Assembly: GCF_000764305.2 (NCBI RefSeq)
Contig: NW_025933425.1
Span: 35,873 to 99,872, forward strand
Source: Hyalella azteca
Taxonomy: Eukaryota; Arthropoda; Malacostraca; Amphipoda; Hyalellidae
Direction of reading: 5' to 3'
Length of the DNA: 64,000 nucleotides
Shown here: one piece after another, positions 8,475-53,700 of the stretch
Position numbering within the stretch: the stretch's first letter is position 1
How the letters are laid out: each line of letters opens with the position of its first letter
Position numbers and translations under genes: made by a program
The notes under the pieces: model-generated
What the model saw: the letters and a program-made list of their open reading frames with translations, nothing else
Told to the model about the DNA's origin: nothing
Databases searched by the model: none

Positions 8475-10325
8475 CTAGAGTTCTTTTTCGTGGCTCACCT
8501 CTAATGGACGTCGCGGCCAATGAGTTATGGACAGAAGACGCAGACATGTTTTGTGCAAAGTGCTGAGTTCATTGAGCAATTTGAGTAGGTTTTGCTCTAT
8601 CCATTCATGCACTGTATACTCATCATAAACTTCAGCTAAAACTTTTTCAGCATCAACTTTGAGTTTGCGAACCTCAAACAGCAGCATAGCCAAGTCTTGG
8701 AGTCCTTGCTCAACGTGCTGCGGACTTGCAAAGTTATGCTGGATGTTGTACTCGGAAACCCAGCCTTTAACATGTGGGTTTGCGTACATTTTAGCGACAT
8801 CTTTATGAAGAATATGGAGGCGTTGAGCAATCTCATAGAAATTGCTACCTGGGAAATTGCACTTGTTTACGAAATCGAGGTACTTCAGATCCAAGTTGAG
8901 ATAAGAGTTACAGTTGAGAGCCTGGCCGACTTTGCTAAGGGCTGTGTGGTCCGCCTGCCTCTGCGTCACGTACATGAGGTTGACCGCCAGAGAAGGGATT
9001 GCCTGTGGCAACAATTCGCACAACACCGAGAAATGATCGAACCGTTGCCAGCCCGTCAATGTGATGCCACGGAACGGGATAACGCTCTTGTACATGTCCA
9101 CTAGCTCCATCCACTCTTTGTGGTTGTTGAGACGCTCACTAATATTGGTGATGAAGGAGTCGGGGTTGGAGGCACCTTTGAAAGCGCTTGCTATCCAAAC
9201 ACCCGCGAAAGACTCAATGTATTTTTCCCAAACGTCCATCCTCAGGTCAGCCATGATCCCTGGATCATATTTCCACACCATGATCTCCACATACTCTTTT
9301 ATGCCGGACTTTTTTATGGTGCTTGCAGCGGCCTTACGAATCTCGTCATCCCAAATGATAGGCTGGATGTCGTACACGTCTTTTACATACTTGGCTATCT
9401 TTCCGATGTGATAGAGGAACATTTCACTCTTGCCATAGTCATTGGCTACCATGAAAGCCTGGCACCTCATACACTCGCCCATGTTGAAGACTTCATCAGC
9501 GCCGATATGCAGCCAGTTCAGGCCAGGATGAAGCTCAGTTATTTGATCAATGATAGATTTGATTAAAGGTATTGTTCTGTTGTTTGTTGGGCAGATAACC
9601 TGGGGATAGTTTGGAACCTCCCTCATATCTTGGAATTCCTTCAGTTTTAGCAAACTCTCCATGTGTCCAATTGACTGAATTATAGGAATCACTTCCATGT
9701 GCAGTCCCCTAGCAATGGCGAGAATTTCCGAAATTTCTTTACGGGTATAAGCATTACGCGCAGCAAGAGATGCGAGAGGACCCCAGTATGGAAAAGAGTC
9801 TTCATACTCTATAAGGAGGCCAGTGGCGCCCATCTCCTTCATATACGGGATCAGAACTCGTAGATAGCTTATTTTAGGTGGCGCTCCTTTCAAATCCAAA
9901 TGAACAAGTTTGTGACTCAGTTGATTGTCAAAAATGGCGTTGTTTTTAATGACTTCTTTCTGTAAGGATTGCGCGCGTTCGCGATGCTTTCGATCCCAAG
10001 CAGAGGCATAGTTTTTTCCCAATATAATACCGACAGGTTCACGACCAAGAGTATTGTGGCTGGCATGCTGTTTTGAGCTCTGAACCTCTTTTGTTTTGTT
10101 GACATTGGCTAGTAGTCTTGCTTCAAAAGCCTTGTGACGACTACCGTGCCGTTCGTTCATTGTTTCCTGACTTCCTTCATTGAGAGAGCTGTGATCATTT
10201 TCACTAAGGGCTGGCTTTGGAGAGCTAACTGAACTGCTAGTTATGAATAGTGCCACAACAAGAGCACAAGCTCCGATGCCAAAGAGTATGAGCAGTCCAC
10301 GCCTCTTTGCACGCAAAAAACTCAT
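8475..10325 (-). CDS. HEXD: Hexosaminidase D-like beta-N-acetylhexosaminidase (GH20), intronless, membrane-anchored
   Basis: A single 616-codon frame. The first ATG is at 10,325; an in-frame GTG 12 bases upstream is not a credible start. Residues about 10-29 form a hydrophobic segment after a basic RAKRRG, giving a type II signal anchor, then a Ser/Asn/His-rich linker to about residue 135. The GH20 domain starts at LVHLDLKGAPPK, continues through LLIEYEDSFPYWGPL, and has the catalytic Asp-Glu pair in HIGADEV (D277, E278); ASAFKGA and LTGWQRFDHFSVLCELLP are family signatures of hexosaminidase D. It should remove terminal GalNAc/GlcNAc from glycoconjugates. Human HEXD (about 486 residues) has no such anchor as far as I recall. 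The C-terminus ends in EKEL, reminiscent of an ER-retrieval signal. Absence of introns is unusual beside its neighbours; a 5'UTR intron is possible (CACACTAG just upstream). Confidence 0.9.
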   Translation of the reverse strand: MSFLRAKRRGLLILFGIGACALVVALFITSSSVSSPKPALSENDHSSLNEGSQETMNERHGSRHKAFEARLLANVNKTKEVQSSKQHASHNTLGREPVGIILGKNYASAWDRKHRERAQSLQKEVIKNNAIFDNQLSHKLVHLDLKGAPPKISYLRVLIPYMKEMGATGLLIEYEDSFPYWGPLASLAARNAYTRKEISEILAIARGLHMEVIPIIQSIGHMESLLKLKEFQDMREVPNYPQVICPTNNRTIPLIKSIIDQITELHPGLNWLHIGADEVFNMGECMRCQAFMVANDYGKSEMFLYHIGKIAKYVKDVYDIQPIIWDDEIRKAAASTIKKSGIKEYVEIMVWKYDPGIMADLRMDVWEKYIESFAGVWIASAFKGASNPDSFITNISERLNNHKEWMELVDMYKSVIPFRGITLTGWQRFDHFSVLCELLPQAIPSLAVNLMYVTQRQADHTALSKVGQALNCNSYLNLDLKYLDFVNKCNFPGSNFYEIAQRLHILHKDVAKMYANPHVKGWVSEYNIQHNFASPQHVEQGLQDLAMLLFEVRKLKVDAEKVLAEVYDEYTVHEWIEQNLLKLLNELSTLHKTCLRLLSITHWPRRPLEVSHEKEL

Positions 10326-11929
10326 GTTGGCAACCACAAATTGATCTAGTGTGGAACACTACCTATATCACCTCAGCAGGTGCACATCTAAACACTGTTG
10401 TGTGTCCCATCCAGGAAGTTGCACAATTTTGCAAAAATGTCAATACATTAAACTTGAAGAACATGAAATAAAAGTATATATTAAATTGTTACAAAGCAAC
10501 AAATTGTACATAGATAAAGGCCTAATTTGCACTGCAAAAATCATTTACTAAATTACCTTCTAAGATCCTTGATACTCAGTAACTAAGAGAAATCCTTTGA
10601 TTCACCGTTGCATTAGAACCTATAAACAAAGCAATTATGAGAAATAAAAGACATGAATGCAGATTGGGTACCCAAAACTTGCACTCTCAGGTTTGGGAGA
10701 TGTCCTTTCTGGAGTAAGGATTAATTAAGGAGCTGAAGCCTTAGCCCTGAAGAGGACTATCCCATGGTCAACCATGCCTGAAATATAAAATTATATTAGA
10801 ATGGGAATTGATATGATTACTATCTTACCCACTAATATATCATATTGGAGCCCTCATTATTCAGGCATGTATTTTATTGGAACCTCAGTATTAAAATTTT
10901 TCAAGAAAATTCAAATTCTACAATTTAATTTGCAGATTTATTAAAAAAGATTCATGTGAAAAGTGAGGTATACAATAGAAAAAATGTGTGCAAGCATGGG
11001 AAAATGCCAGCTAAAATGCATTTTTAAAATAATTTTTTAGAGAAATTAAACAAGGGTCAAAGCAACATGTAAAATGGTCTGCAGGCATGAGAATCTTTAG
11101 AGGTGGTTTCTGCCCACTTCCCAATTTTGGTTGGCAATTCTGTCAGACAGAATAACTGTCAAGTAATATTCATTTTGTATTAACATTTAGCAGGTAAAGT
11201 GAAGTCAGTTTGGGTGACAGACACATAGGCCACGTAGAAAATTTTTTGTTGCCTTTCCACAAGTTCATTTTTGAGTCCTATATATAGTCCTATAAGTATC
11301 TTGGATACCAGCATTATCATGCATAAGAAATTGATAGAAATATTGAGTAGATGAGGAAATTAAAAATGAACTGATTCTAAAAAATCTCTGGCTTGCCACT
11401 TTTGCAACAATAAATCTGGCACCTGCAAATCTCAATTTCATCATGGTCTAGGAAAGTTGAATAATATCTTACATACGGTACCTGCTAAACTGCTAAGGTG
11501 TATGAATGGGAAATTCCTTCTTACTACCAAGATTTAGCAGGACCAAAATGATATATTTCAATAATTTTGGAGTCTCATGTCTCAATTGTAAAGTTTTGGT
11601 AACAATTACCTTCAATGACACACAAGTTGCCACATGGCAGCTATTGCATTTAACTTTCTGCTTGTCAATAAAAACCATACAATACTAGTCAGAACCCAGA
11701 AGTATATACAATTTGAAGGGTTTGATTCCCAGTACCACATAATAATTATGAAGTAGTTTTAATTGTACTAGAAATTTTTTACTCTGTTTTATTTTCAAAA
11801 TAGATCAATAATATTACAGGCTGAGAAAATAAACAAGTGCAGTGGCACATGGCAGAGTTAGCAGTATTGATAGTAGATAGGAGATTATTTTGTCACTTTT
11901 GATTTTGGCTTTTAATCTTTTACCACGTG
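10326..11929. other. Upstream flank of the hexosaminidase gene, with a dispersed repeat copy
   Basis: Contains the promoter side of the minus-strand hexosaminidase gene; no core promoter element is clear. About 11,270-11,400 is the second copy of the GAGTCCTATA repeat family. Nothing else supported. Confidence 0.3.
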
Positions 11930-20300: not shown

Positions 20301-22222
20301 TGGTAAATCTTGTGGGTCTGTTACATATCTGTTCCTATAGATTCGATTGATTCATTGAAGGCTAATTAGCGCTAAGCTTTATGCAATTAGTAACCCATTA
20401 TTGTTTCTCTTGTACCTAGAATCATCAAGAACGTCTCTACGAATGCGAGCTGTGCTTCCAAACCGTTTACTCCGGAGATGCATCAGGGGATACGCAAGGC
20501 CTCGTTTTCCAGAAGCGATCTGACCTCATCCTACATTTGGAAGAACATTTATCGAATGGAGAACGCCGGTACACCTGCGGTTCGTGCAACAAACGCTTCT
20601 GTTTAGCGCGCCAAATTCGTCAGCATAAACGTCATCATCTGGCCAAGTCCGTGATGTGTCCTCACTGCCCCAGGAGGTTCAGGAGCGAGGTGGCTCTCCA
20701 AGAACACATCTATAATCACACGGGATGTCGCCCTTTCAGATGTTTCCATTGTAAGAAGAGATTTTCGTCGAGGTATACCCTTAAAGTGCACAACAAAACA
20801 CATCTCGTCCGAGAAAGAAATCACAGGTGCATTGTGTGCAGGAAAGAGTTTTTATCGTACCATCATCTCGTGGAGCACATGCATGTGCATGAGGACAGTA
20901 AAAACTTTCCCTGCGATGTCTGTGGAAAAGCTTTTGCTACAGTCAGAAGTCTTGAACTCCACAAAGTTATTCATACTGGCGTTAAAAATTATTCTTGTAA
21001 ACTATGTAATAAAATGTTTGCTCGTAAAGGCGAAGTCGAAGACCATGAGAGAATACATACCGGAGAAAAACCCTTTCAGTGTGAAATTTGCGGAGCAACT
21101 TTCAGCCAGAGAAGTAATTTACAAAGCCACAAGCGTGCAACTCATCTCAAAGAAAAGAAGCATCAGTGTCCTGATTGTGATAAGGCTTTTAAAAGAAGAA
21201 GGTTGTTAGTCTGTCATCAAATGAGTGTTCACACAGGTGAACGACCCTACAAATGTGAAATTTGTAGTGCTGCATTTGTTTATCCAGAACATTTTAAGAA
21301 GCACCTCCGAATTCACACTGGTGAAAAACCCTTCAAATGCGAAATTTGTGGTAAAGCATTTAACTCGCGGGATAACCGAAACGCGCACAAGTTCATTCAT
21401 TCAGAACGTAAGCCTTACGAGTGCACCTTATGTAACACAGGCTTCATGCGCAAGCCCATGCTCATGACGCACCTCTTGCAGCATGACCAAAATTTGTCTC
21501 AGCCCAAGTCTTGTGTTCGTGTGAACCCTCCAAGCGTGGCTGATGAACCTTGGTCACAAAATCATTCCATGGCAACCGATGAGAACGAATTTTATGAAAG
21601 CTCTGAATCACTCAAAATTGTCCCTGAAGAACTCGAAGGTGAAGTTCAGCTAGTGAATAATGAAGAAGTTGAGGTTGTGTCTAGGCCTCTGCATATCATC
21701 CAGACCGATGGCTTGCCGCGCTATCTCATCCAGAGCTCAGACCGAAGTTCCTTCCTGGCTTCTATTCAAGGCCAGGTGCTGAAAGTCCGTCCTGAAGCCT
21801 TCCATGTCAAGTGCGACGGAGTGCACTATGAGTTGAGTGACAACGCTCCTGAGGCAGAGGATGTCGAATCTCCCACAGCAAATCCACTCGGCGTCCAGAC
21901 GAGCACTTTTCAACTCCAGCTTGATGACGAGGACGATCTTGACCAAGATGAACTCAAGTTGCAAAACGTAAGAACCGTTGGCGGGGAAATTCAAGGTATA
22001 AGTTGCGTGTCAGGTGTTGTAGGGTCTCAACACGGACACGACAATGATTTGTTATCGTGCGGCACCTCGCAAGAAGACAACAACGCCCTGTTATCTCGGT
22101 CGTTCCAGTTCGATGGGCCCATCAAAGTTTACACCACACAAGGAGTCGTCACAGTTCCAGGAGGCAAGCAGAGGCGTGTTGCGTCCAACAGGACCATGTG
22201 GAACGAAGCTAATACTGAATAA
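17330..22222 (+). CDS. C2H2 zinc-finger protein, probable transcription factor, multi-exon
   Basis: Firm exons: 20,420-22,222 (stop TAA) and 19,955-20,113, both phase 0. They encode about 13 C2H2 fingers: a partial one (YLCYYC ... HIIENH) split by the intron, an irregular one (YECELC ... HLEEH), then 11 regular fingers from YTCGSC to YECTLC with TGEKPF-type linkers, and an acidic tail of about 235 residues. Likely upstream exons: about 19,369-19,518 (ends FDESDATGLRASNET, donor GTGAGT), 18,247-about 18,435 (Arg-Gly run RYRGRGRGRGRGK, then VKNEPAVQ) and 17,330-17,558 (ATG; IIKEEEEDSD, a SUMO-motif-like acidic patch). The phase between the upstream exons is not resolved; a 25-nt microexon at about 18,086-18,110 would reconcile the first join. 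The protein should bind DNA in the nucleus; target unknown. ATTAAA near 22,250 may be the polyadenylation signal. Confidence 0.8.
19524..19765 (+). repeat. 40-bp tandem repeat directly after a splice donor
   Basis: Units beginning ATGCACTG start at 19,534, 19,574, 19,614, 19,654, 19,694 and 19,734, an exact 40-bp period. The core is TAACGGGACGCTGGGTGAC and copies differ by one to three bases. The array starts within 20 bases of the putative GTGAGT donor at 19,519 in the zinc-finger gene. Confidence 0.9.
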
Positions 22223-35064: not shown

Positions 35065-35762
35065 TGACTGAGATCTGCGCCGCGCGCCTGGCTGTAGATC
35101 TGTGCCGCGCGCCTGGCTGGCTGGAGATCTGCGCCGCGCGCCTGGCTGGAGATCTGCGCCGCGCACCTGGCTGGATATCTGCGCCGCGCGCCTGGCTGGA
35201 GATCTGCGCCGCGCGCCTGGCTGGAGATCTGCGCCGCGCGCCTGGCTGAGATCTGCGCCGCGTGCCTGGCTGGCTGGAGATCTGCGCCGCCCGCCTGGCT
35301 GGAGATCTGCGCCGTGCGCCTGGCTGGCTGGAGATCTGCGCCGCGCGCCTGACTGCGGAGATCTGCGCCGCGCGCCTGGCTGGCTGGAGATCTGCGCCGC
35401 GCGCCTTGCTGACTGTGGAGATTTGCGCCGCCCGCCTGGCTGGCTGGAGATCTGCGCCGCGCGCCTGGCTGGCTGGAGATCTGCGTCGCGCGCCTTGCTG
35501 ACTGTGGAGATCTGCGCCGCGCGCCTTGCTGGCTGGAGATCTGCGCCGCGCGCCTAGCTGGCTGGAGATCTGCATCGCCCGCCTGGCTGGCTGGAGATCT
35601 GCGCCGCGCGCCTTGCTGGCTGGAGATCTGCGCCGCGCGCCTTGCTGGCTGGAGATCTGCGCCGCGCGCCTGGCTGGCTGGAGATCTGCGCCGCGCGCCT
35701 GGCTGGCTGGAGATCTGCGCCGCGCGCCTGGCTGGCTGGAGATCTGCGCCGTGCGCCTGGCT
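35065..35762. repeat. GC-rich satellite, 25/29-bp unit with BglII and BssHII sites
   Basis: About 25 units built from GGAGATCTGCGCCGCGCGCC followed by TGGCTGGCT (29 bp) or TGGCT (25 bp); a few carry GACTGCGGA or GACTGTGGA instead. Nearly every unit has AGATCT and GCGCGC. Composition is far richer in G, C and CpG than the flanks. Long open frames on both strands are a by-product of the stop-poor unit. Confidence 0.95.
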
Positions 35763-35826
35763 TAAGTTTTGTGGCTGCTTTGCTGCGTGACTGTCGGCAA
35801 CACAAACCTATTACTGCGCGCACTAA

Positions 35827-36290
35827 ATGTTAGTGGTGAGGTGATTGGCTCGTTGGTGGTGAGGTGATTGGTTCGTTAGTGGTGAGGTGATTGGTTCGTT
35901 AGTTGTGAGGTGATTGGTTCGTTAGTTGTGAGGTGATTGGTTCGTTAGTTGTGAGGTGATTGGTTCGTTAGTTGTGAGGTGATTGGTTCGTTAGTGGTGA
36001 GGTGATTGGTTCGTTAGTTGTGAGGTGATTGGTTCGTTAGTTGTGAGGTGATTGGTTCGTTAGTGGTGAGGTGATTGGTTCGTTAGTTGTGAGGTGATTG
36101 GTTCGTTAGTTGTGAGGTGATTGGTTCGTTAGTGGTGAGGTGATTGGTTCGTTAGTTGTGAGGTGATTGGTTCGTTAGTTGTGAGGTGATTGGTTCGTTA
36201 GTGGTGAGGTGATTGGTTCGTTAGTTGTGAGGTGATTGGTTCGTTAGTTGTGAGGTGATTGGTTCGTTAGTGGTGATGTAATTGGCTCGT
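35827..36290. repeat. 23-bp satellite with a 69-bp higher-order period
   Basis: About 20 units starting GTGAGGTGATT and ending CGTTAGTT or CGTTAGTG. From about 35,990 the last base alternates strictly G,T,T,G,T,T, with the G variants at about 35,993, 36,062, 36,131, 36,200 and 36,269, giving an exact 69-bp trimer. Confidence 0.95.
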
Positions 36291-36815
36291 TAATGATGAG
36301 GCAATGGTTGGTGTTGTTACTTGTAAATTACTTCGTAAGGCAACACATGCATATATATTATATATAATACGCAAACTGGATTATCAAATATCACAAAATT
36401 CTGAAGTTTCAAAATCGCGCGAATGTTCTCAAACTTTTACTTGTAAATTATTACACATTTATTAGTGAATTTATGCAAGATGATAGTATTTAGAATGAGT
36501 TAAATGAGAGACACACAATCTCATTCATATACTGTAGTTCACTATTATTGTTCTTCCCAATCGTTAAATCAATCAATCCCGCAATCCTTCCTCAATTTCC
36601 CGCCTTTCAATAATTTTTTATATTCAACTTTGTTGCCACGCTTACTTATAATAATCCGATTGGTAATCATGAACATTTTTCTGATGAAACGACTTCGGAA
36701 TCGTAAGTTGTTATTGCAATGGGAAGGGCCAGCAAAAACAAGATCATTTATATAGCAGGATATCTGTCATGCACTTTATATACTCGTGGACATTAAAAAA
36801 GCTAGATAGTCAAGT
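36291..36815. other. Spacer between satellite arrays
   Basis: AT-rich unique sequence; an 83-codon open frame at 36,504-36,755 has no supporting motif or splice sites. Confidence 0.3.
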
Positions 36816-39922: not shown

Positions 39923-39928
39923 TTTATT
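39923..39928 (-). promoter_or_regulatory. Polyadenylation signal AATAAA for the diphthine synthase gene
   Basis: A minus-strand AATAAA about 88 bases past the stop codon at 40,016, at a plausible 3'UTR distance. Confidence 0.5.
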
Positions 39929-40015: not shown

Positions 40016-43000
40016 CTACGAGATAGAAATTGGTTTAGTCAGAGCAGCTAAGCACTCTTCTTCAAGAGGGTGTGTGTGGCCCAACACGATAAGAGCGTAC
40101 AACGCTGTCTCACTACGAAATATATCCGCATTAGCTAGATCCTGAAGGTTGGTGTTATAATATATTGGTTGTCCACGTGTCGGCATCTTGCCTATCACAA
40201 CACGACAGGCACCATCTATTTTGGACGATTCGATGACAGATGAAAGTTTCAACAATAGGCGAGCAACTTCACACGGAGTCCATTGTGACAATTTATCATT
40301 ACCCTCACGATGCAAAATGCACAAACTGTGCCAACCAACGCTAATGTTGCTCATGAGTTTCTTGTAAAACACGGGTACATCAGGTAACGAGTGTGGGTCA
40401 TAAATTGATCCAGACTCTGGAAGGCGGATGACCTCCCCAAATGAATATAGCTGCAGCCCACATGATGCCACAGAATTAATTAGAGACGCGTTGTGCACGA
40501 CTGAAAATGGGATGTTGCAATCTACTAGCCGCGTGAGTAGAGAAGTATATTCAGTGAGGGCCAGAGGATCTCCCCAAATCATAATCGTCACATCCTCTCC
40601 GCTTTTGAGTAATGCTAAAACGTCTTCACAATCGCTCGCACTCACACTTGGTTTGTTCACATCAAAAGCAGCATCCAAACGATCCAATTCATCAGGGTTG
40701 AAAACATCTGAGAAAATTTCTCGAATGCTCCTCGAGCCTAACAACACGTTCAAAATTTGTCTAGATGCTTTGTCAAGGAACACATGATTGGTTTTGAGCA
40801 AAATTTCTACACCCTTAACGGTGATATCAGAGATTGTTAAGCCCATTCCTATAAGATGGAGGCGTCCAGCACAAGAAGACGCAGGTTTTGTGGCTCCTTG
40901 ATACCAGGAAGCCAGAGCAGCCGCGTCACGTGTCTCCGCGTCGCTCAGGGGGGCACAAACCACCATTGAGTGCAAAGGCTCGCCTAGGTCAGCTTCAGCT
41001 GATTCTGAAAATTTCGAAATTGAGAAAATTCATACAAAGTTTTAAGCGCAAAACCTAATTAAATAAGTCATTGACCCAGCCGTCAAATAAAGGTAATCAG
41101 ATACATACGTAAACTACATTTGGCAAATATTTTCATCTTCATTGAATCGTGCCTTTCTTATTCCAGAAATCTGATAAATACATAGGCTGATAACTGAAAA
41201 ACGGAGACGGTTAATTGAATAACTAAATACCTATGTATAAGTCTAAGAACATAAATTTGAATGTTGACAATACTCCAGAGTGCAATAAATATTTCACCTT
41301 GCAGTGTCATGACGAGATTTTTTTGGCGCTCAGTACCCAGCCTAACACAGGCAATGCAGGTAGTGTCACGACGGAGTGTGCCTTCTGTACAGGAATTATC
41401 CTGCTGCTCTCTCTTCTCTATGATGGCCAGCAGCTGCTTGGCAGCTTCGTGGGTGCGCATGAAGCGAGGAGGTTCAAACAATTTCCGGTTCTTTATGATG
41501 TTTTCAACGGTTTGCTCTTTGACTTTAATGTCTGAGAGTAGAAAATAAAAATAACATAAAATGAAGCAAAAATGATCAGAAATAAATCGATTCTTTCAAT
41601 TGATAACATCCTGAAAATATTCACTGCTACATTATATTTATATATACACTCAAATCGATTATACTTGTATATACTGTATATATACTTACAACGATATGGT
41701 AACGCAGAAGAATTCTGAGACCTACAAAAATTTAGAGATCAGATGAAAACTAGAAGATAATTTATTTATTTCAAAGGTCTTGAATTGTCTACATTTAATT
41801 AGGTAAAAAAGATTGGTTAATCATTAAAGTAGGAACACAACAAAATAAAAAAAGAAATGGAGAGTCTGGCATGCTGGAGGAGTGAAAATATTTTTCGTAA
41901 CAAGCTCTGAAATTGGGCTCATTAAATTGTACTAATAAAAAGGATAAAAATTGGAATTTCAGTTATAGACACAGACATGATCTTACACAGACAAGTATTA
42001 AATGCAGTGGTCAAATCAAAAATGGCTACATAAATTGCTTTCAATAACAAGCTTTGACATTATAAATGGGCAATTTCACAAACCAAGAAGGCAAAGAGTG
42101 TGCAAGCCATGCTTGAGGTTGGTGCATATTTTGTCATAAAAGCTTTCAGGCTGCCAGTTTTCTTCCCAGTATGGAATGGACACAACTTCTCCAAGGCGCT
42201 CCAATTTGAGCCCAGTTGTTGCAGCAGAGGTCAGCACTGAAGCATTACTTAAAACCTGAGAAGAAAATTATTGCAATAGGTTAGCATTATAAGGAACATA
42301 TATAAATACTCCCAGTGCAGTACATTTTCATGATAAATGTTTTAATCAAAAAGAGCAGCAAATGATGCAAAATCAATCAATAGTTTAATCTTTAATTTTG
42401 CTAGAATGAAAGAACGTGTTACATTAAAATACCATTGGCTGATCGTAAAATTATAACAGTATGACCAGTGGTGAATAGATGATTGTTAAAAAAATAAATT
42501 TGTATAATAGAATACATAAGAATCAAACTCAATTAAAGCTCCTGATTTTGTAATAGTAACAAGACATTGTTTCATTTGATGTGGTTATGGCAATTCAAAG
42601 ATTTATTAGGCTAGGATATCTCCAAAAAGGTAGTTCCACCAATGATAAAATAAAATCATCTATTATATTATTACATCTGAAATTATTCTGAATATATTTA
42701 TATTATCTGAGAAATACTGACACTTCTAATGCTACTGAAGTGAGATGAAAATACCATTGTTTAAGATAGTAATCAAGTTTTTTTTTAAATAATTTCATTA
42801 TTCAAGTGAAAATGTTGAATAATTGCTGGCAATTTAAATTATGCTTCAATTCTGACCTGGACTGGGATGCCCAAAGCTTGAGCTCTGAGCATGAGATCGG
42901 AATGAGTTGTGGCACTGAGAGGGTCTCCCACCACCAGCAGCGCAACATCCTGCACATCAGCCGACTGCAGCAGGTCTCCAGCTCCAACTTCCACTTGTTC

Positions 43001-46000
43001 TCGGTCAGCTATCAAGATTTTTCTCCCATAATAGGTTTCCTGAAAATGAGGGATAGTAAATTAGGACACAATAAAAAATTATTATTGACTTAATAGTCTC
43101 AGAAAACTTTTCAGTGAAGAGTTTGAACAGCTCCAAAAAATCCTGTAAATTACATACAACATACACATATAGATTGAAGCAAATTTCCTGCACGTCTATA
43201 GGTTGTTAGCAGCACTTAGCACTAACAAAAATTTACTGTCATAGTACTGGAAATAAGGAATTACATGGTAATGTGACTGCTGTAGGGCCCCAAGATCTCT
43301 ATGTTCAACCAATTTATTCTATATTCAAGATCAATCCAGCCCAGTAACTTGATTAGTTCTGAAAATTTAGCAGACTTTAGTTTCAGATTTTATAATAACA
43401 TAAAATTATGAATAAAATATAGTTTTAGATTTTTTGTTCCACTATATGTGCATTTGTTCATTGTCATGCATGAATTAAGGGGAGCTTCTCGCCTAAAATT
43501 GAAAATTTTCACTTTTTCGGTTTTTATACTCATTTTAAAGCTGACATTCTGCCCTATCCAACGGTACCACTGCCATCTCTCTACGTTTATTTATGATTTC
43601 ACGACATTTCATGAAGGGGAGCGGGTGGGGGAGTTCTTTAAGTAATTTTTTTTAAAGGCCTCCACACTCACCATTCCAACAAAAAAAGAAGTGATTTTAA
43701 GTAATTATATAGGAACTAATTAGCTGCTGAGCTCTTTAAATATAGTGTCTAGGTACTTGAGTTGTGCTGCAGGTATGTGTTTAGTCTCATCTTAACGCTG
43801 ACTTTCTGGCCTATCCAATGGTACCACTACCATCTCTGTACGTCGACTTTCACTTACACGACACTTCATGAAAGGGGGGCGGGGAGGGAGTTCTTTCAGT
43901 AATTAGATACGAGATAATTCGCTGTCCACCACTACAAATATAGTGTTTTTGTGAGGTCTGACTCAGTGTGCCTCCGGGCTTTGTAGGGAGAGATGTGCAT
44001 GTAGTTGCTCCCATCATCCTTGAATGGAATCAAGCTTCAGAAATGTTTAGTTTGGAATCTATGCTACATTGAGTGCATATTGTGGTGCGCGCGGGACTTT
44101 GTCGCTCTCTCCTAAACATTCACACTTATTGTCATGAAAAACCTATCTCCTCCTAGAGTTTTGAAGCTACGTCAATGAGACATATATATACCGTTCGATT
44201 TGGAAATGAAAGAGCTACAAAACTGTGTATGGGTTTTTCTAAGTTCGTTAGAGTTCGGATTTAATGTTGCAAAAAAGGGGGGAAAGTGGAGGTAAAATCG
44301 AAAATTTCAAACAATTTCAGACAAAATGCTCCCACACTCACGAAAATGAGAAATTCAAAAAACCTATACACAATTTTGTAGATGTGGTCTTTACACATCA
44401 AATGATATGTGTCTCAATGTTGTAGCTTGAAAATCCTAGGAGGAGATAGGTTTTCTAAAGTAGGGTAGGGTAAACGCGGTATATTCCGACATCATAGGTA
44501 ATTCCGTCACGGTGTCACCTCTCTAGTTTTTCCTTTATATTAAGCTTTGTTTTAGTTCCATGCGTTCGTTGATGGTTGAAATGGTGACGTCATACATTTG
44601 CGCGTCGAACTACTGCCAAAACACTAGGTCTTGGCCATCTAGCGGGAAAATATTGAGATCCAAAGAGAGACAATGCATGCTACCCAGTGAGATCATCAAA
44701 AAATGTGTCAAATTTGGCAGTTGACCTTGCTCTACCAAATAGTAAATAACTGTTTGTATAGGAAGAATATTATGGTTTGAGACTTTTAGATACAGCAATC
44801 CCTTGATTAACGCGGTTAATAAATCCCCGAGTTTTACCGTGTTAAGCAAAACTGCGCTAATCAAACTTAAGAATATATGGGAATAATTATAATGAATCCT
44901 CAAAAATAGCAAAGGAAAGGAAAATTATTTAGTTTGATAAAAGTGAGCAGTAGATATGGCAGCAATCTTGACCAGTTGAAGGCTAACGAGTAACTAGCCC
45001 TTTACGCACTGAATTATGTTTCAAAAGTGAAAAAACAATCTGAATTACTTTTCAGATCACGCGCAGTCTTTGTGTTGTACTGGCAGTAGCGGTGCGCCTA
45101 CTCCATCGAACGTCGTTCGAACAAGTTCACAACATGTGACGCTACTGTCACACTTGCGGCTAGAATCCAAACATGTAATTACTCTCGGTAGAAGCTTTTA
45201 TTTTCTGTGTGACAAATTCGTCATACCAGGGCTTAAAGGGCTAGAGCACCGGCATGGCGCACTTACCGGCGAACGTTGCCAAACTCGATCATTCGAGTTA
45301 TGAATGAGACAAGGCGCGGTTAAACCGACTCTGTAGTTAGCACGAGTGCCTACGGAACGGGACCTTATTTAAAGAATTATTGACTGAAATTCATAACGTA
45401 ACAACATTTGGCAAATTTTTCCAAAAGTCGTAACAAAAGTAACAACATAAGATCTAATAAGCAAGAAGTAACACTTTTATTACGAACGTAACACCTCTGG
45501 CTGGAGGCGGGAAAATGATGCATTGTGAAAAAAAAGTCGTGCTAATCAAAACTGGCACCGCGTAGATTAAGGGTAGGTCGCAAATTTTTTTTCCGCATTA
45601 ATCAGAACCGCGGTATTCAAAACCGTGCTAATCAAGGGATTGCTGTACGTCTGTGAATATATTAGGAATCCTTTAAGTATACTTGTATTTGCTGATTTCA
45701 AGTGGTAAATAAATTAATTAATAGATGATTAAGTTGAAAAATGAATTTAGACACATGAAAACTAATTCCGTCACAACTTGAATTGGACACACACAGATCG
45801 TTCCAAGCTGTGTACAAAAATTAAAATTTGCTTAATTAAAAGCTTAATAGTTGTTAATTAAAAGCGTAATTAAGTAGTGTTCAATATTCATTAGTGTTCT
45901 AATTCAAAGCCGTGTTGTATTCCAATACAGCTCACACAGCAAACGGAATTCAAACACGTGGATGACGGCATTACGTATCAGTAGAATTTGAAGCGCGGAC

Positions 46001-47139
46001 GGAATACGCCTCACCACGTGCCAAATATTGCCACACACAGTGTCGGAATATAGGGATTTGGTAGGTTTGCATTCAAAAGGCCTTTAAATAAATACGCTTT
46101 TTAAATAAGTAACGCATACGGTTATTTTTTATAGTTTTTCATTTCTCGATGTGTCCTTAATGTGTCGGAATATACTGCGTTTACCCTGCCCCTTTTTGGT
46201 CGTTTCCTAAGAATTTCACGTTTTCTTTTAATTTTTTCGAAAAATTGACACGAATAAAACCTGTTTTCTTTTAGGGTTTACACATGTGTACCAAATTTCT
46301 GATTGATCCCTCTGTAAATTACTGAGATAAATTTTAGGCGAGACGTTCCTCTTAACCTTGTCCTTCAAAATTCCACCCTCAATTCAATTTATTATTCCAT
46401 GTTAAATTTTAGGAAGGTAGTTTGTTTACAGCATTACCTATGGAATATGGACTCCACTAATTTTATAGCTACAAAGTTCTACCTTAATTAACATATCCAT
46501 AATAATTCAAATTTCAAAATGCAACAAAAAATAGGCTAAGTGCTTTCAAGTCATATGAAAAAACTAAACTTGCACATCCTATTTTTAGACATAGGCTACA
46601 TCCTACATGATACCTATTAAGGCGGGAAGGCCTATCATTCTATTCATAGCCTAACCTGAAGTTCAGAACTGTATTGTTGTATTTATAGGTAGGTACCAAA
46701 ATTACATGACACTGAATACTGATGATAGAACAGAAAAATTATTTTAAATGTGATTGTTTGTTACATATGCTATGCTACAAAAGTATAATTTGATTGAAAA
46801 TTGAAACAGTAAAAGTACTTAAAAGTTAATACGGTACCTACTAATAAATTCAAATTGTTGGCATTTGATTGCTGCTTTTGTTGGCAGTTGGCACTGCATT
46901 GGTTTAGTGATGTCAGTGACGATGGTCATTAACATTCAATAATCAATGATATTGATAGCCTAGATGGAAGACGGCAGGTACCTAGTATTTTCATTTCTTA
47001 CCAGAGAAGGCTCAGTTCCATTGACTAAAATTGAAGTATATGCTTCTAAATAAACTCGTTCACATTTTTTGATAATCTGTTGGCCAAAAACACCCACATC
47101 AGTTGGATCACCCAACCCCAAGCCAATAAGGAAGAACAT
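40016..47139 (-). CDS. DPH5: Tandem-duplicated diphthine methyl ester synthase (two DPH5 domains in one chain)
   Basis: Minus-strand exons 47,002-47,139, 42,857-43,039, 42,084-42,255, 41,298-41,531 and 40,016-41,004 join in phase (0, 0, 1, 1) into exactly 572 codons; DPH5 is normally about 285 residues. Domain 1 (1 to about 275): FLIGLGLGDP, VYLEAYTSIL, ILIADREQVE, LLVVGDPLSATTHSDL (80-95), SFYDKI, HTLCLL, DIKVKEQ, and at the start of exon 5 ADLGEPLHS (247-255). Domain 2 (about 290-571) follows in the same exon: LHLIGMGL, SDITVKG (301-307), HNASLINS (413-420), GLQLYSFGE (425-433) and GHTHPLEEE. Both are SAM-dependent methylases of the TP-methylase fold, acting on eEF2 in diphthamide synthesis in the cytosol. 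Domain 1 lacks DITVKG (DVGVFG), the HNAS histidine (SNAS) and GLQLYxFG (GLKLERLG); domain 2 lacks VYLEAY, IADxExVE and ATTH (ALTEYTS). Intron 1 carries nested transposons. Confidence 0.92.
44468..46186. mobile_element. Tc1/mariner-type element A, host of a second element
   Basis: The ends are GGGTAAACGCGGTATATTC on the left and its inverted form (GAATATACTGCGTTTACCC) on the right; subterminal strings such as AGCTTTGTTTTAGTT and CATTTCTCGATG are shared with the 220-bp element at 49,466-49,685. A TA precedes the left end. Part of the interior is a separate insertion (44,793-45,645). No transposase frame survives. Confidence 0.7.
44793..45645. mobile_element. pogo/Tigger-like element nested in element A
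   Basis: Terminal inverted repeats CAGCAATCCCTTGATTA and TAATCAAGGGATTGCTG flanked on both sides by TA (44,791-44,792 and 45,646-45,647), the expected Tc1/mariner target duplication. The subterminal CGCGGTTAAT motif recurs inside. About 853 bp; no long transposase frame seen. Confidence 0.8.
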
Positions 47140-50440: not shown

Positions 50441-50743
50441 TGATGTTCATCAGCGTGATGTTCATTAAAATTTATATGAATTTTTGGAGCAGCATCACTC
50501 ATCACAATGTATATTTGACTAAGTTTGGTGTAAGATTAAAATATTGCATTGGTATCATTTATATATGGTATATCACAACTCAGTTCATTAAAATGAAGTT
50601 ATTGAAGTATATATAGGTTCAGTAGTCAATTCAATAAAGTAGTTAGGAGCAAAATATTTGTTCTTGTTCATAAATGTATGAACCTAATAATCACTAGACA
50701 ATTTGAATATTGATGATTTTTTCATTTTTCAGAAGTGAAAGTA

Positions 50744-53700
50744 ATGGATCCTCCTGCAGCTGAAAGTACCCAACCTGCACCCATTGCTGAAGTTAACATG
50801 AGTGATAATGTAGCATGCAAGGTAGCTGAACTGAGAGCAAATGCCTCAGGTCAAGAAGAAACATCTTCTATCTTTATCAAGTCTTCTTCTCACAATGATC
50901 AAGAGAACCTAGACACCCATTCATGCAAACAAATTTGTTTGCCTCTACCATGCTTACCTCATGAAAACAACATAGTGTACTGCTTCATTTTGAGTGTGTG
51001 GGATAATGTTATTGGCCCTCAAACTGTGCAAGTGTGGACACGAGAATCTAAGCCTCCAAGAACTTCACAATTACAACACACCGATAACCAAGCAACAAGA
51101 CAATCAGCTTCTATGGATGAGCTACCAAGCAAAAAAGATAATAACATAGGAATGAATCGTGATGAGTCTTGCTCTCAAAGTTCTGAACAATCTCAAAATC
51201 TTCCTGCTCAACAAAGAGACTTCAATGCTTCTTGCTCTGCTCCGCATTCAGCTGAAGTAACTACTACAAATCAGTTTCACCTATCTACCTCCAAGCCTCA
51301 AAAGTGAGAATTATTCATGTGTGTCTTGAAACTATTTGTAAGATATTGGTGTATAGTTAGATATTTATTTGCTGCATTTCATCTTCATTACTGTAAAATC
51401 AATGCCAAACCAACATAAATGTAATAAAACGTAATGATTACTTCTTCAAATTTTATTTCACAGTAATTCAAAGAAAGACACCTTATTTTTGTCCTGATTT
51501 AGTGATTAAAATTATTGATTCTGGAACAAAATTCATTTTTAACTTCTTGCCAAGCTACAATTAAAGGTTTTCATTACTATCTCTTTGAAATGGCAATTCA
51601 ATATGGTACAAGTGAAATTTATGAGCCATTAGTCATTTTTGTTTTTGTATGCATGCATCAAAATTATGTTTTAGCTCTTAACATGGCTGACTTCATTGCC
51701 TGGAACATTGTAACTTAATCAAAGTTCCTTATGAGATCCTGGTTAGTTGAAATTGAACCTTCTCAGAACTCCACTGTGATGTTGAAAATGTACAATTTAT
51801 CTCACTCAGGCCATTTAGCCTATCCTTTATAATTTTATAGTGCAAAGTAAAATTTACTGCATGCAAAGAGTTTCACAGGGCTGTGCCACTGTGAGTAGCT
51901 AGATTAGATTGAATAGCTTGTTAGAAGCAATGTAACATTTTTGTATTTGTTACAGAAAAGGAAGCAGTCGCTTGCAGTCAATTGTTCGCTATGTAACTGA
52001 GCACACTGTGACCTTAGCTCAAGTTAACCAGCCATCATCAGGCAGAGATGTCTCATCAGAAGAACCCAGTTCAACAATCATGATTATACCTCAACATGGG
52101 ATTATTATACAGGCTCTTCGGTAATTCTAAATGCTTTTTGGATAATAATTGAGTTTGAAAGTGATATAAATTGTATAATTACTATCTGTACTAATTACTA
52201 TTACTAATTGTAGGTATTAATGTATAGGTAATAGGTACTTTAGTTTTATTGCTGGCTGAAGAAGCACGAATGCTTTTTTCACACCAGGTTCTTGGTGCAG
52301 GAGGAAGCAGACGTGTTGGTGCCTCACTGTTTGTCAATGGTGGTGTCCATCAAGGAGGAGAAGCAGCTACTGCAAGTCTCTTCCCTCACTTGCTCTTATC
52401 TCCTGAGGATTCTCAGGAAATTAAGAATTTATCTCTCTGGCGTAAGGAATGTCTGTTTAGAACTCCTTCATTATACACTAGTCAGATACTTGAATCAGCC
52501 AAGCAGTTTACACAATTTATATTATTACTGTAATACTTTGCTTCTTGTGATACATGAAAGTTTTGCAGTAAAAACTGATCTTGGATCAGTTGGAACCCAT
52601 TTACTTTTACATTAAATTGGCATTCATTGTTTCATATAGTCCCGATGTGTTATTTTGACCACTCAATAGAGAGACTTGAATTATTATCCTGTCGAGATGT
52701 AATTTAACAGTCCTACATTTTGAGTGCGTATCAATGTTTTTTTTAATTGAGCAGAGCACCCTACACAAGATAGGTGAAGCAGTGAAGCAACACTTGCAGG
52801 AGCTGTGCTGGGTGCTGGTATCTCTGAGGCTGCACTCGCTGTCACTGTATCCTCTGTATCCTTCTGGCCAACCTCCTTCAGATCATCAGTTTGCCCTGAA
52901 ACTCCTCACCTCGCATCTAACCACTGCTGGCTACACTGTTGTTGTCGGCAATACCTGCACTGCTGTTAACTCGGTTAGATGCTACATTAAGTGACTTAAA
53001 ATGTATTGTCTAAACAAATATTAAAACTTTATAGTAATGCTTTTTTTTCATCTCTGTAAGCTGCTGCAGTTTGAAGCTTGAATTGCTCTGATGTGCATTT
53101 TATATTGTTTGAGTCCAAGAATGAAATTCAGTTATATATCAACGACAAAGTTTTTTTTTTGTGCATAAAAATATTATTTAACTGATTGCTTTGTTTCTTT
53201 TTTGACTTTTGGTTAATTTTGTTAAATTCAATGAAGAAATGAATTAGGTGTTCAGTAATATTACCTGCCAAGTACATCTTAAACTATTACACTGATCGAT
53301 ATGACTCTCCATTCTTATGTTCCTTTTTAATTGGCCACCAGGTGTTGCTGTGGTTGGGACAGTTCCTTCGCCCACAAGAACTACATTTATCAAGACTGTG
53401 TTGGGATCCTTGCTATAATGAAGTGCAGCCTGGTCTCTTCCTCCAGGTATATTAGATATATATGAAGGACGTTAAGCCATTCATCATTTCATATCTATTA
53501 CTTGCATGGACCAAACACAACTAGCCTTTCTTGATTCCCCCTGTCACTTCAAATTTGTAGCTTACTTACTTGTCAGATTAGCGCCATATTGGTTAGACTA
53601 GGAACATAAAACTATTTAAAAAAATGAAATAAATTTCCAATTAATGCTAACTGGAGAAAGATTTGGCTTCCATTTAAATAGTATGAAGGACAAGATGTGT

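Follow-up and report, generated by a model that had tools for sequence, protein, structure and literature searches.

In the known diphthine methyl ester synthases (DPH5 or Dph5, class III methyltransferases of PF00590, such as PH0725 of Pyrococcus horikoshii and 3i4t of Entamoeba) the chain consists of one domain, and the archaeal enzyme is a homodimer. A 64,000-nucleotide stretch of the Hyalella azteca genome (contig NW_025933425.1, positions 35,873 to 99,872, referred to below as the window) carries a DPH5 gene in which two such domains, D1 and D2, follow each other in one chain, each of them without residues that are near-invariant in the single-domain enzymes. The locus raises the question whether the double chain is real and, if so, how two incomplete halves could serve as one enzyme.

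The double DPH5 chain of H. azteca

The gene occupies five exons on the minus strand (47139-40016, in window positions). The introns are GT-AG in 4/4 cases with consistent phases, and the coding sequence of 1716 nt gives 571 amino acids and a stop codon, which confirms the five in-phase exons and 571 codons of the original prediction. Upstream of the ATG in-frame stop codons are present (TGA at three codons, TAA at two codons). Exon 1 (47002..47139, start codon 47139-47137) encodes residues 1-46 of D1, with DVGVFG at 47100-47083 and VYLEAYTS at 47055-47032. In exon 2 (42857..43039) the IADREQVE (43012-42989) and GDPLSATTHSDL (42928-42893) motifs belong to the part that we call the S-adenosylmethionine (SAM)-side core, which is kept in D1. 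Exon 3 (42084..42255) has SNAS for HNAS (42249-42238) and GLKLERLG for GLQLYxFG (42213-42190), and residues that we call the cap are lost there. DIKVKEQ and FEPPRFM are kept in exon 4 (41298..41531).

Exon 5 (40016..41004) holds the C-terminal strand of D1 (GEPLHS, 40984-40967), a linker and the whole D2 (40016..40861) without an intron. D2 keeps DITVKG (40828-40811), HNAS (40495-40484), GLQLYSFGE (40459-40433) and GHTHPLEEE (40081-40055), and VFLDKASR, PDELDRLD, GDPLALTEYTSL and ETALYA stand in it in place of core motifs. All the motifs originally quoted for the two domains could be located. The claim that D2 had lost the three motifs kept by D1 was correct on the whole; the ATTHSD part of GDPLSATTHSDL is gone from D2, but its GDP is still there. 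An AATAAA polyadenylation-type signal, a pattern match alone, lies 3' of the stop codon at 39923..39928 of the same strand.

The stop-free run of the last exon from D1 into D2, a further point of the original prediction, was also borne out. Its open frame has 337 codons, a length that 0/100 resampled windows reached (order-1 resampling; maximum 198, median 145). A public gene model from the same contig (P0001, HAZT_HAZT005544, partial, 430 amino acids) contains the identical D1-D2 join at 100% identity. The unbroken fused frame was also observed in five full-length proteins (P0006, P0010, P0013, P0014 and P0019) whose longest contigs measure 1.8-2.5 kb, and we infer these contigs to be transcripts.

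Both halves could be assigned to the DPH5 family. The Pfam TP_methylase profile scored 66.7 bits for D1 and 43.8 bits for D2 over a cut-off of 27.8, the D2 match spanning 136/212 profile positions. The sequence matches to diphthine synthases in the PDB extend over residues 1-266 of D1 and 5-277 of the 285 residues of D2, in agreement with the fold of solved DPH5. The chain is 571 amino acids long with two domains, vs 265-292 amino acids in the solved chains. The near-invariant set, H109, Q123, Y125 and H260 together with the ATTHxDL/PLHS core, is complete in neither domain, and the whole chain holds each member at least once. D1 of the amphipods is about 50% identical to tick DPH5, and amphipod D2 is 26.7-33.2% identical to D1. 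Judged by its sequence, the H. azteca protein is a DPH5-family chain and not a canonical single-domain DPH5.

In order to find any separate canonical DPH5, the whole 519 Mb assembly was searched with tick DPH5 (E<=10), and of the 6 candidates scored the 5 matches were the five exons of this locus. In the PF00590 search of the genome 3 candidates were scored and the 1 match was the D2 exon. A second gene elsewhere in the assembly was therefore rejected, as both searches match this locus only, within the limit that they could miss a very divergent or unassembled copy. DPH1/DPH2-family exons were found above the family cut-off on two H. azteca contigs, and by these matches the first enzyme pair of the diphthamide pathway is represented in the animal. 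The gene is probably the diphthine methyl ester synthase of H. azteca, and its sole one.

Spread and age of the fusion

The original prediction had called for a search for other double-length DPH5, and the search was productive. With the 571-residue query 422 proteins were found at E<=0.001; among the best 120 of these, 18 span 98% or more of the query. One of the 18 is from a plant (Castilleja), and the other 17 come from Malacostraca or cluster with them. Besides Hyalella, tandem proteins are present in 12 named species: Penaeus monodon, Homarus americanus, Procambarus clarkii, Halocaridina rubra, Oratosquilla oratoria, Palaemon carinicauda, Petrolisthes manimaculis, Macrobrachium rosenbergii, Chionoecetes opilio, Eriocheir sinensis, Meganyctiphanes norvegica and Hirondellea gigas. 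Five further tandem proteins were put into groups by their similarity and tree position, and the full-length tandem set used below (n=18) comprises 3 amphipod, 2 krill, 1 mantis shrimp and 12 decapod proteins. A profile search (5155 proteins at E<=0.001) gave no additional full-length tandem among its best 120. By name, neither an isopod or non-malacostracan crustacean nor a single-domain malacostracan DPH5 was present among the matches listed, the best 120 of each search. On this comparison the tandem is not peculiar to H. azteca; it is old and common to the sampled Malacostraca.

Among the partial proteins, the model P0021 of Trinorchestia longiramus joins an upstream PF13639 stretch, which we take to be a RING-type domain, to D1 exons 1-4 only. 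It looks like a gene-model error in which the D1-D2 exon is missing.

Phylogenetic trees were built from the separated domains. The stricter tree was made without the long-branched D2 rows of the three full amphipod proteins and without either half of the partial P0022. In this tree D1 forms a clade with support values of 100/95 and D2 one of 100/97, each of them a single group in 200/200 bootstrap trees, and the two clades join each other at 94/89. In the fuller tree with amphipod D2 the D1 and D2 clades have supports of 97 and 98 in the SH-like approximate likelihood ratio test (SH-aLRT), and amphipod D2 falls inside the D2 clade. Accordingly placed are the two H. azteca halves, D1 in the D1 clade of both trees and D2, on its long branch, in the D2 clade of the fuller tree. 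Since D1 and D2 are separate, well-supported clades, a single duplication-fusion took place before mantis shrimps split from Eumalacostraca. The fused chain and its minimum age are firm, and the branching of the sequences sets the mantis-shrimp/Eumalacostraca split as a firm lower bound of that age.

The origin of D2 may be a retrocopy, because all four D1 introns are missing from D2 in Hyalella. The proteins P0048 and P0051 start within a few residues of the start of the last Hyalella exon and read through D2 unbroken. Four decapod-like open reading frames (P0217, P0218, P0230 and P0243) likewise contain most of D2 and have no introns at the D1 positions; these frames end short of the remaining D1, from which their contigs would be genomic. 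Such intronless D2 stretches would be in keeping with a retrocopy.

Conserved residues lost from D1 and D2

Residues are numbered after a mammalian DPH5 (row P0024, from a bat). N110 and H260 of this row coincide with the human variant positions given in PMC12294659; G257 and H260 are G259 and H262 in tick numbering. The reference set consisted of 213 single DPH5 of 250-420 amino acids, not including the tandem fragments P0048, P0051 and P0232 and four D2 fragments, and 74 of them were retained at <80% identity. Columns conserved in at least 90% of these 74 non-redundant singles were scored (97 columns; an earlier set of 94 still counted P0048 and P0051 as singles). The partial tandems P0020, P0021 and P0022 were excluded from the loss sets. 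Among the singles Q123 and Y125 are invariant (213/213), and histidine is found at position 109 in 212/213 and at position 260 in 210/213.

His109, the histidine of HNAS, is gone from D1 and present in D2 in 18/18 full-length tandems. The D1 columns lost in every member of a group number 9 of 97 in amphipods and 11 in krill. Five losses are common to the two groups, namely H109, Q123, Y125, G257 and H260, where 1.0 would be expected (Fisher p 0.0007, to be read with the reservation, valid for all the loss statistics, that the columns are not mutually independent and the groups were picked by us). When H109 is set aside, 4 common D1 losses remain in the 94-column set (p 0.0014). All five residues are kept in D2 of 18/18 full-length tandems. 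D1 of the decapods retains Q123 and G257 in 12/12 and Y125 and H260 in 11/12 proteins, the exception being Eriocheir, and D1 of the mantis shrimp retains all four. Since krill D1 branches with decapod D1 (97/88 in the stricter tree), and the D1 of mantis shrimp and decapods keeps those residues, the losses in krill and in amphipods are independent.

D2 has lost 38 columns in the amphipods and 26 in the krill. Of the 14 that are common to both, 10 are intact in all full-length D1 (E32, T90, D93, W140, K166, Q170, N174, E183, P184 and R224); L38, G178 and R186 are not kept in all D1, and G87 varies in D1. Little should be read into the change of residue 87 in D1 and D2, because the human G87R variant kept activity according to PMC5371833, a source whose variants miss the cap residues.

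Loss of cap residues from D1 and loss of non-cap residues from D2 stand in a dose-like relation. Tandems with 4/5 cap residues in D1 (n=12) have 5-15 non-cap losses in D2, and those with at most 2 (3 amphipods, 2 krill and Eriocheir; n=6) have 21-56; non-cap losses in D1 are 1-9 across all 18. As related rows are not independent, this relation counts as three events. The third of them is the mitten crab Eriocheir (P0016), whose D1 no longer has Y125 and H260; no other decapod has lost cap residues beyond H109. D2 of Eriocheir has the most losses of any decapod, D93, K168, E183, P184 and R186 included, and carries an insertion that is possibly a gene-model error. Eriocheir would represent a partial version of the amphipod and krill pattern. 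The strong complementarity of D1 and D2 is, on this distribution, derived, as D2 of the mantis shrimp and of most decapods remains near canonical.

A further lineage seems to have split the same two residue groups the other way round. P0048 (314 amino acids) and P0232 (288 amino acids) are tandem fragments paired at 100/99; the pair is the first D2 branch in the stricter tree, where amphipod D2 is absent, and the position of P0048 within D2 is open in the fuller one. Their D2 keeps ATTHTDL and GEPLHS of the SAM-side core as well as H109, and has lost Q123, Y125 and H260. In the visible D1 tail of P0048 the PLHS residues are lost and H260 is kept.

A composite active site and its alternatives

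We consider it somewhat probable that the protein is a former homodimer turned into a tandem, with one composite site across the D1-D2 interface. In the ancestral homodimer each site would have joined one protomer's SAM-side core (YLEAYTS, ADRE, GDPxxATTHxDL, DIKVKE, EPPR and GxPLHS) to the other protomer's cap (His109, Gln123, Tyr125, Gly257 and His260). Duplication and head-to-tail fusion in an early malacostracan would have put the former dimer into one chain of D1 and D2 and left one of the two sites redundant and free to decay. The earliest step would have been the loss of His109 from D1 in the common ancestor; after it the rest of the D1 cap and much of the D2 core would have been shed separately in amphipods and in krill, and one site made of the D1 core and the D2 cap would remain. 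That one chain completes one site is the simplest reading, since the full DPH5 residue set is found in the whole chain but in no single amphipod or krill domain, and the Hyalella assembly has no other DPH5 match. For one amphipod tandem and one krill tandem the AlphaFold2 models (predicted template modelling scores, pTM, 0.85 and 0.82) suggest a defined arrangement of D1 and D2. D1 and D2 would presumably pack like the homodimer, share a single active site and produce diphthine.

The original prediction had proposed a fused pseudo-heterodimer with either one site or a composite one. The fused chain and the complementary loss of motifs are real and are seen in the sequence itself. Of the two alternatives the composite one is now better supported, since krill arrived at the same partition independently, the mitten crab did so in part, and P0048/P0232 show its mirror image, though the composite nature is still deduced.

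In RsmI, which belongs to the same fold class, the dimer contacts are made mainly by helices 4-6, strands 5-8 and their loops, according to PMC5053481. By our reading of the secondary structure this is roughly the region where Gln123 and Tyr125 would fall. Several observations weigh against a composite site. PMC5053481 also describes the RsmI dimer as back-to-back with its SAM exposed, and the protein's own strand4-helix4 loop as helping to bind SAM; if this loop is equated with HNAS, as we do, it speaks against a simple trans role of His109, so that the likeness to RsmI works in both directions. A modelling study places human His260 at an eEF2-binding surface and treats H260R as affecting eEF2 binding (PMC12294659). 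The D2 losses of amphipods and krill overlap in 14 columns vs 10.2 expected (p 0.061), and the D1 and D2 losses are weakly disjoint both within amphipods (1 of 9 common, 3.5 expected, p 0.068) and within krill (2 of 11 common, 3.0 expected, p 0.39). D2 of the mantis shrimp and most decapods keeps both halves of the site, so that a complete D2 site is possible there. Krill D2 pairs weakly with the mantis shrimp and P0051 (87/19) and not with decapod D2. The mirror-image lineage consists of two fragments with about 20 D1 residues, and its D2 retains His109.

The labour could also be divided without composite catalysis: D1 would bind SAM and catalyse, and His109, Gln123, Tyr125 and His260 of D2 would form an eEF2-docking or allosteric surface needed once per dimer. 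The SAM-side core of D1 is indeed largely intact in 3/3 full-length amphipods and 2/2 krill (6-9 non-cap losses of 92), and the modelled perturbation of the eEF2-binding surface by the His260 variant (PMC12294659) fits as well. Random retention would place the two groups oppositely about half the time per lineage, and opposite placement was seen in amphipods, krill, partly in Eriocheir and in the mirror-image fragments; this argument is weak, as it amounts at best to 1 in 16 and two of the four cases are incomplete. We regard such a division as rather unlikely. A third reading, in which one domain is a complete enzyme and the other a decaying dimerisation scaffold, would agree with the near-canonical D2 of the mantis shrimp and most decapods (4-13/94 columns lost, 19 in Eriocheir) and with the decapod D1, where just 2-8/94 columns are lost. 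In amphipods and krill, however, neither domain is complete: none of the five cap residues is left in D1, and D2, with 27-56 losses outside the cap, still has all five in 5/5 rows, which makes the scaffold improbable.

That the amphipod protein has ceased to make diphthine and taken on another role would agree with the strong divergence of amphipod D2 from D1 noted above, but as the sole DPH5 match of an assembly with DPH1/DPH2-family exons, and with a D1 that is about 50% identical to the tick enzyme, it is very unlikely to have done so. An artefact of annotation or assembly, in the form of two genes or a frame error, is hardly credible. Models from a single genome can fuse neighbours, and no specific support for this was found here; the tandem relatives (17 others of double length, malacostracan or malacostracan-like), the whole frame on short contigs, the old D1 and D2 clades and the 337-codon frame against a resampled maximum of 198 led us to reject it.

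To return to the composite site, an arrangement of this kind has a parallel in the C1 and C2 halves of the mammalian membrane adenylyl cyclases, a fused pseudo-heterodimer with one surviving composite site. If the proposed composite DPH5 site is right, the likeness is one of principle (a homodimer with two shared sites becomes one chain with one site), with no homology. A double DPH5 of the plant Castilleja foliolosa (P0018, 567 amino acids) also has SNAS for HNAS in its first half and keeps HNAS in the second. It differs in that its halves are 88.2% identical and are sisters in the tree, so it would be independent and recent, and it is a single unverified gene model. Nematode models that join a GPI-mannosyltransferase (PF05007) to DPH5 (P0035, P0036, P0037, P0044 and similar ones) have an unrelated partner; they cover about 45-48% of the tandem query, that is, one DPH5 domain, and are either read-through models or a real fusion.

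Literature searches for tandem DPH5 in crustaceans, judged by titles, abstracts and term counts, found no description among the papers listed, and the earlier statement that none had been described held, which is weak evidence of absence; double-length entries do exist in databases under automatic names. Among the papers listed for it, no residue-level structural study of the DPH5 dimer was identifiable from titles and abstracts. With an even balance of belief and doubt we extend the proposal to the whole family: all DPH5 homodimers, human included, would have two trans-composite sites, with His260 (H260R), His109, Gln123 and Tyr125 acting on the SAM of the partner, an arrangement exposed by the repeated decay of one site after the malacostracan fusion in amphipods, krill, incipiently in the mitten crab, and in the mirror-image lineage.

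In a large crustacean group the enzyme for a step common to archaea and eukaryotes has become a single-chain pseudo-dimer, a natural example of reciprocal decay recurring after fusion. The losses sort near-invariant residues into two groups that are seemingly needed once per pair, and offer a concrete, testable map of residues cooperating between the two halves of the DPH5 dimer, among them human His260 and the residue next to Asn110 (variant N110S). A composite site, if true, would assign His260, which is affected in human disease, to the half that acts in trans.

Other features were observed elsewhere in the window. A 627-codon open frame on the minus strand (8475-10358) has a glycosyl hydrolase family 20 domain (59.1 bits), and a 600-codon open frame on the plus strand (20420-22222) encodes a C2H2 zinc finger array. 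Two open frames on the plus strand (50717-52615), divergent from the DPH5 gene, matched nothing in Pfam and nothing significantly in the PDB; their identification as a C9orf72 relative was dropped, since these comparisons gave it no support. At 35070-36292 two minisatellites adjoin each other, one with a 29-bp GC-rich unit repeated 24.8 times and one with a 23-bp unit repeated 20.2 times.

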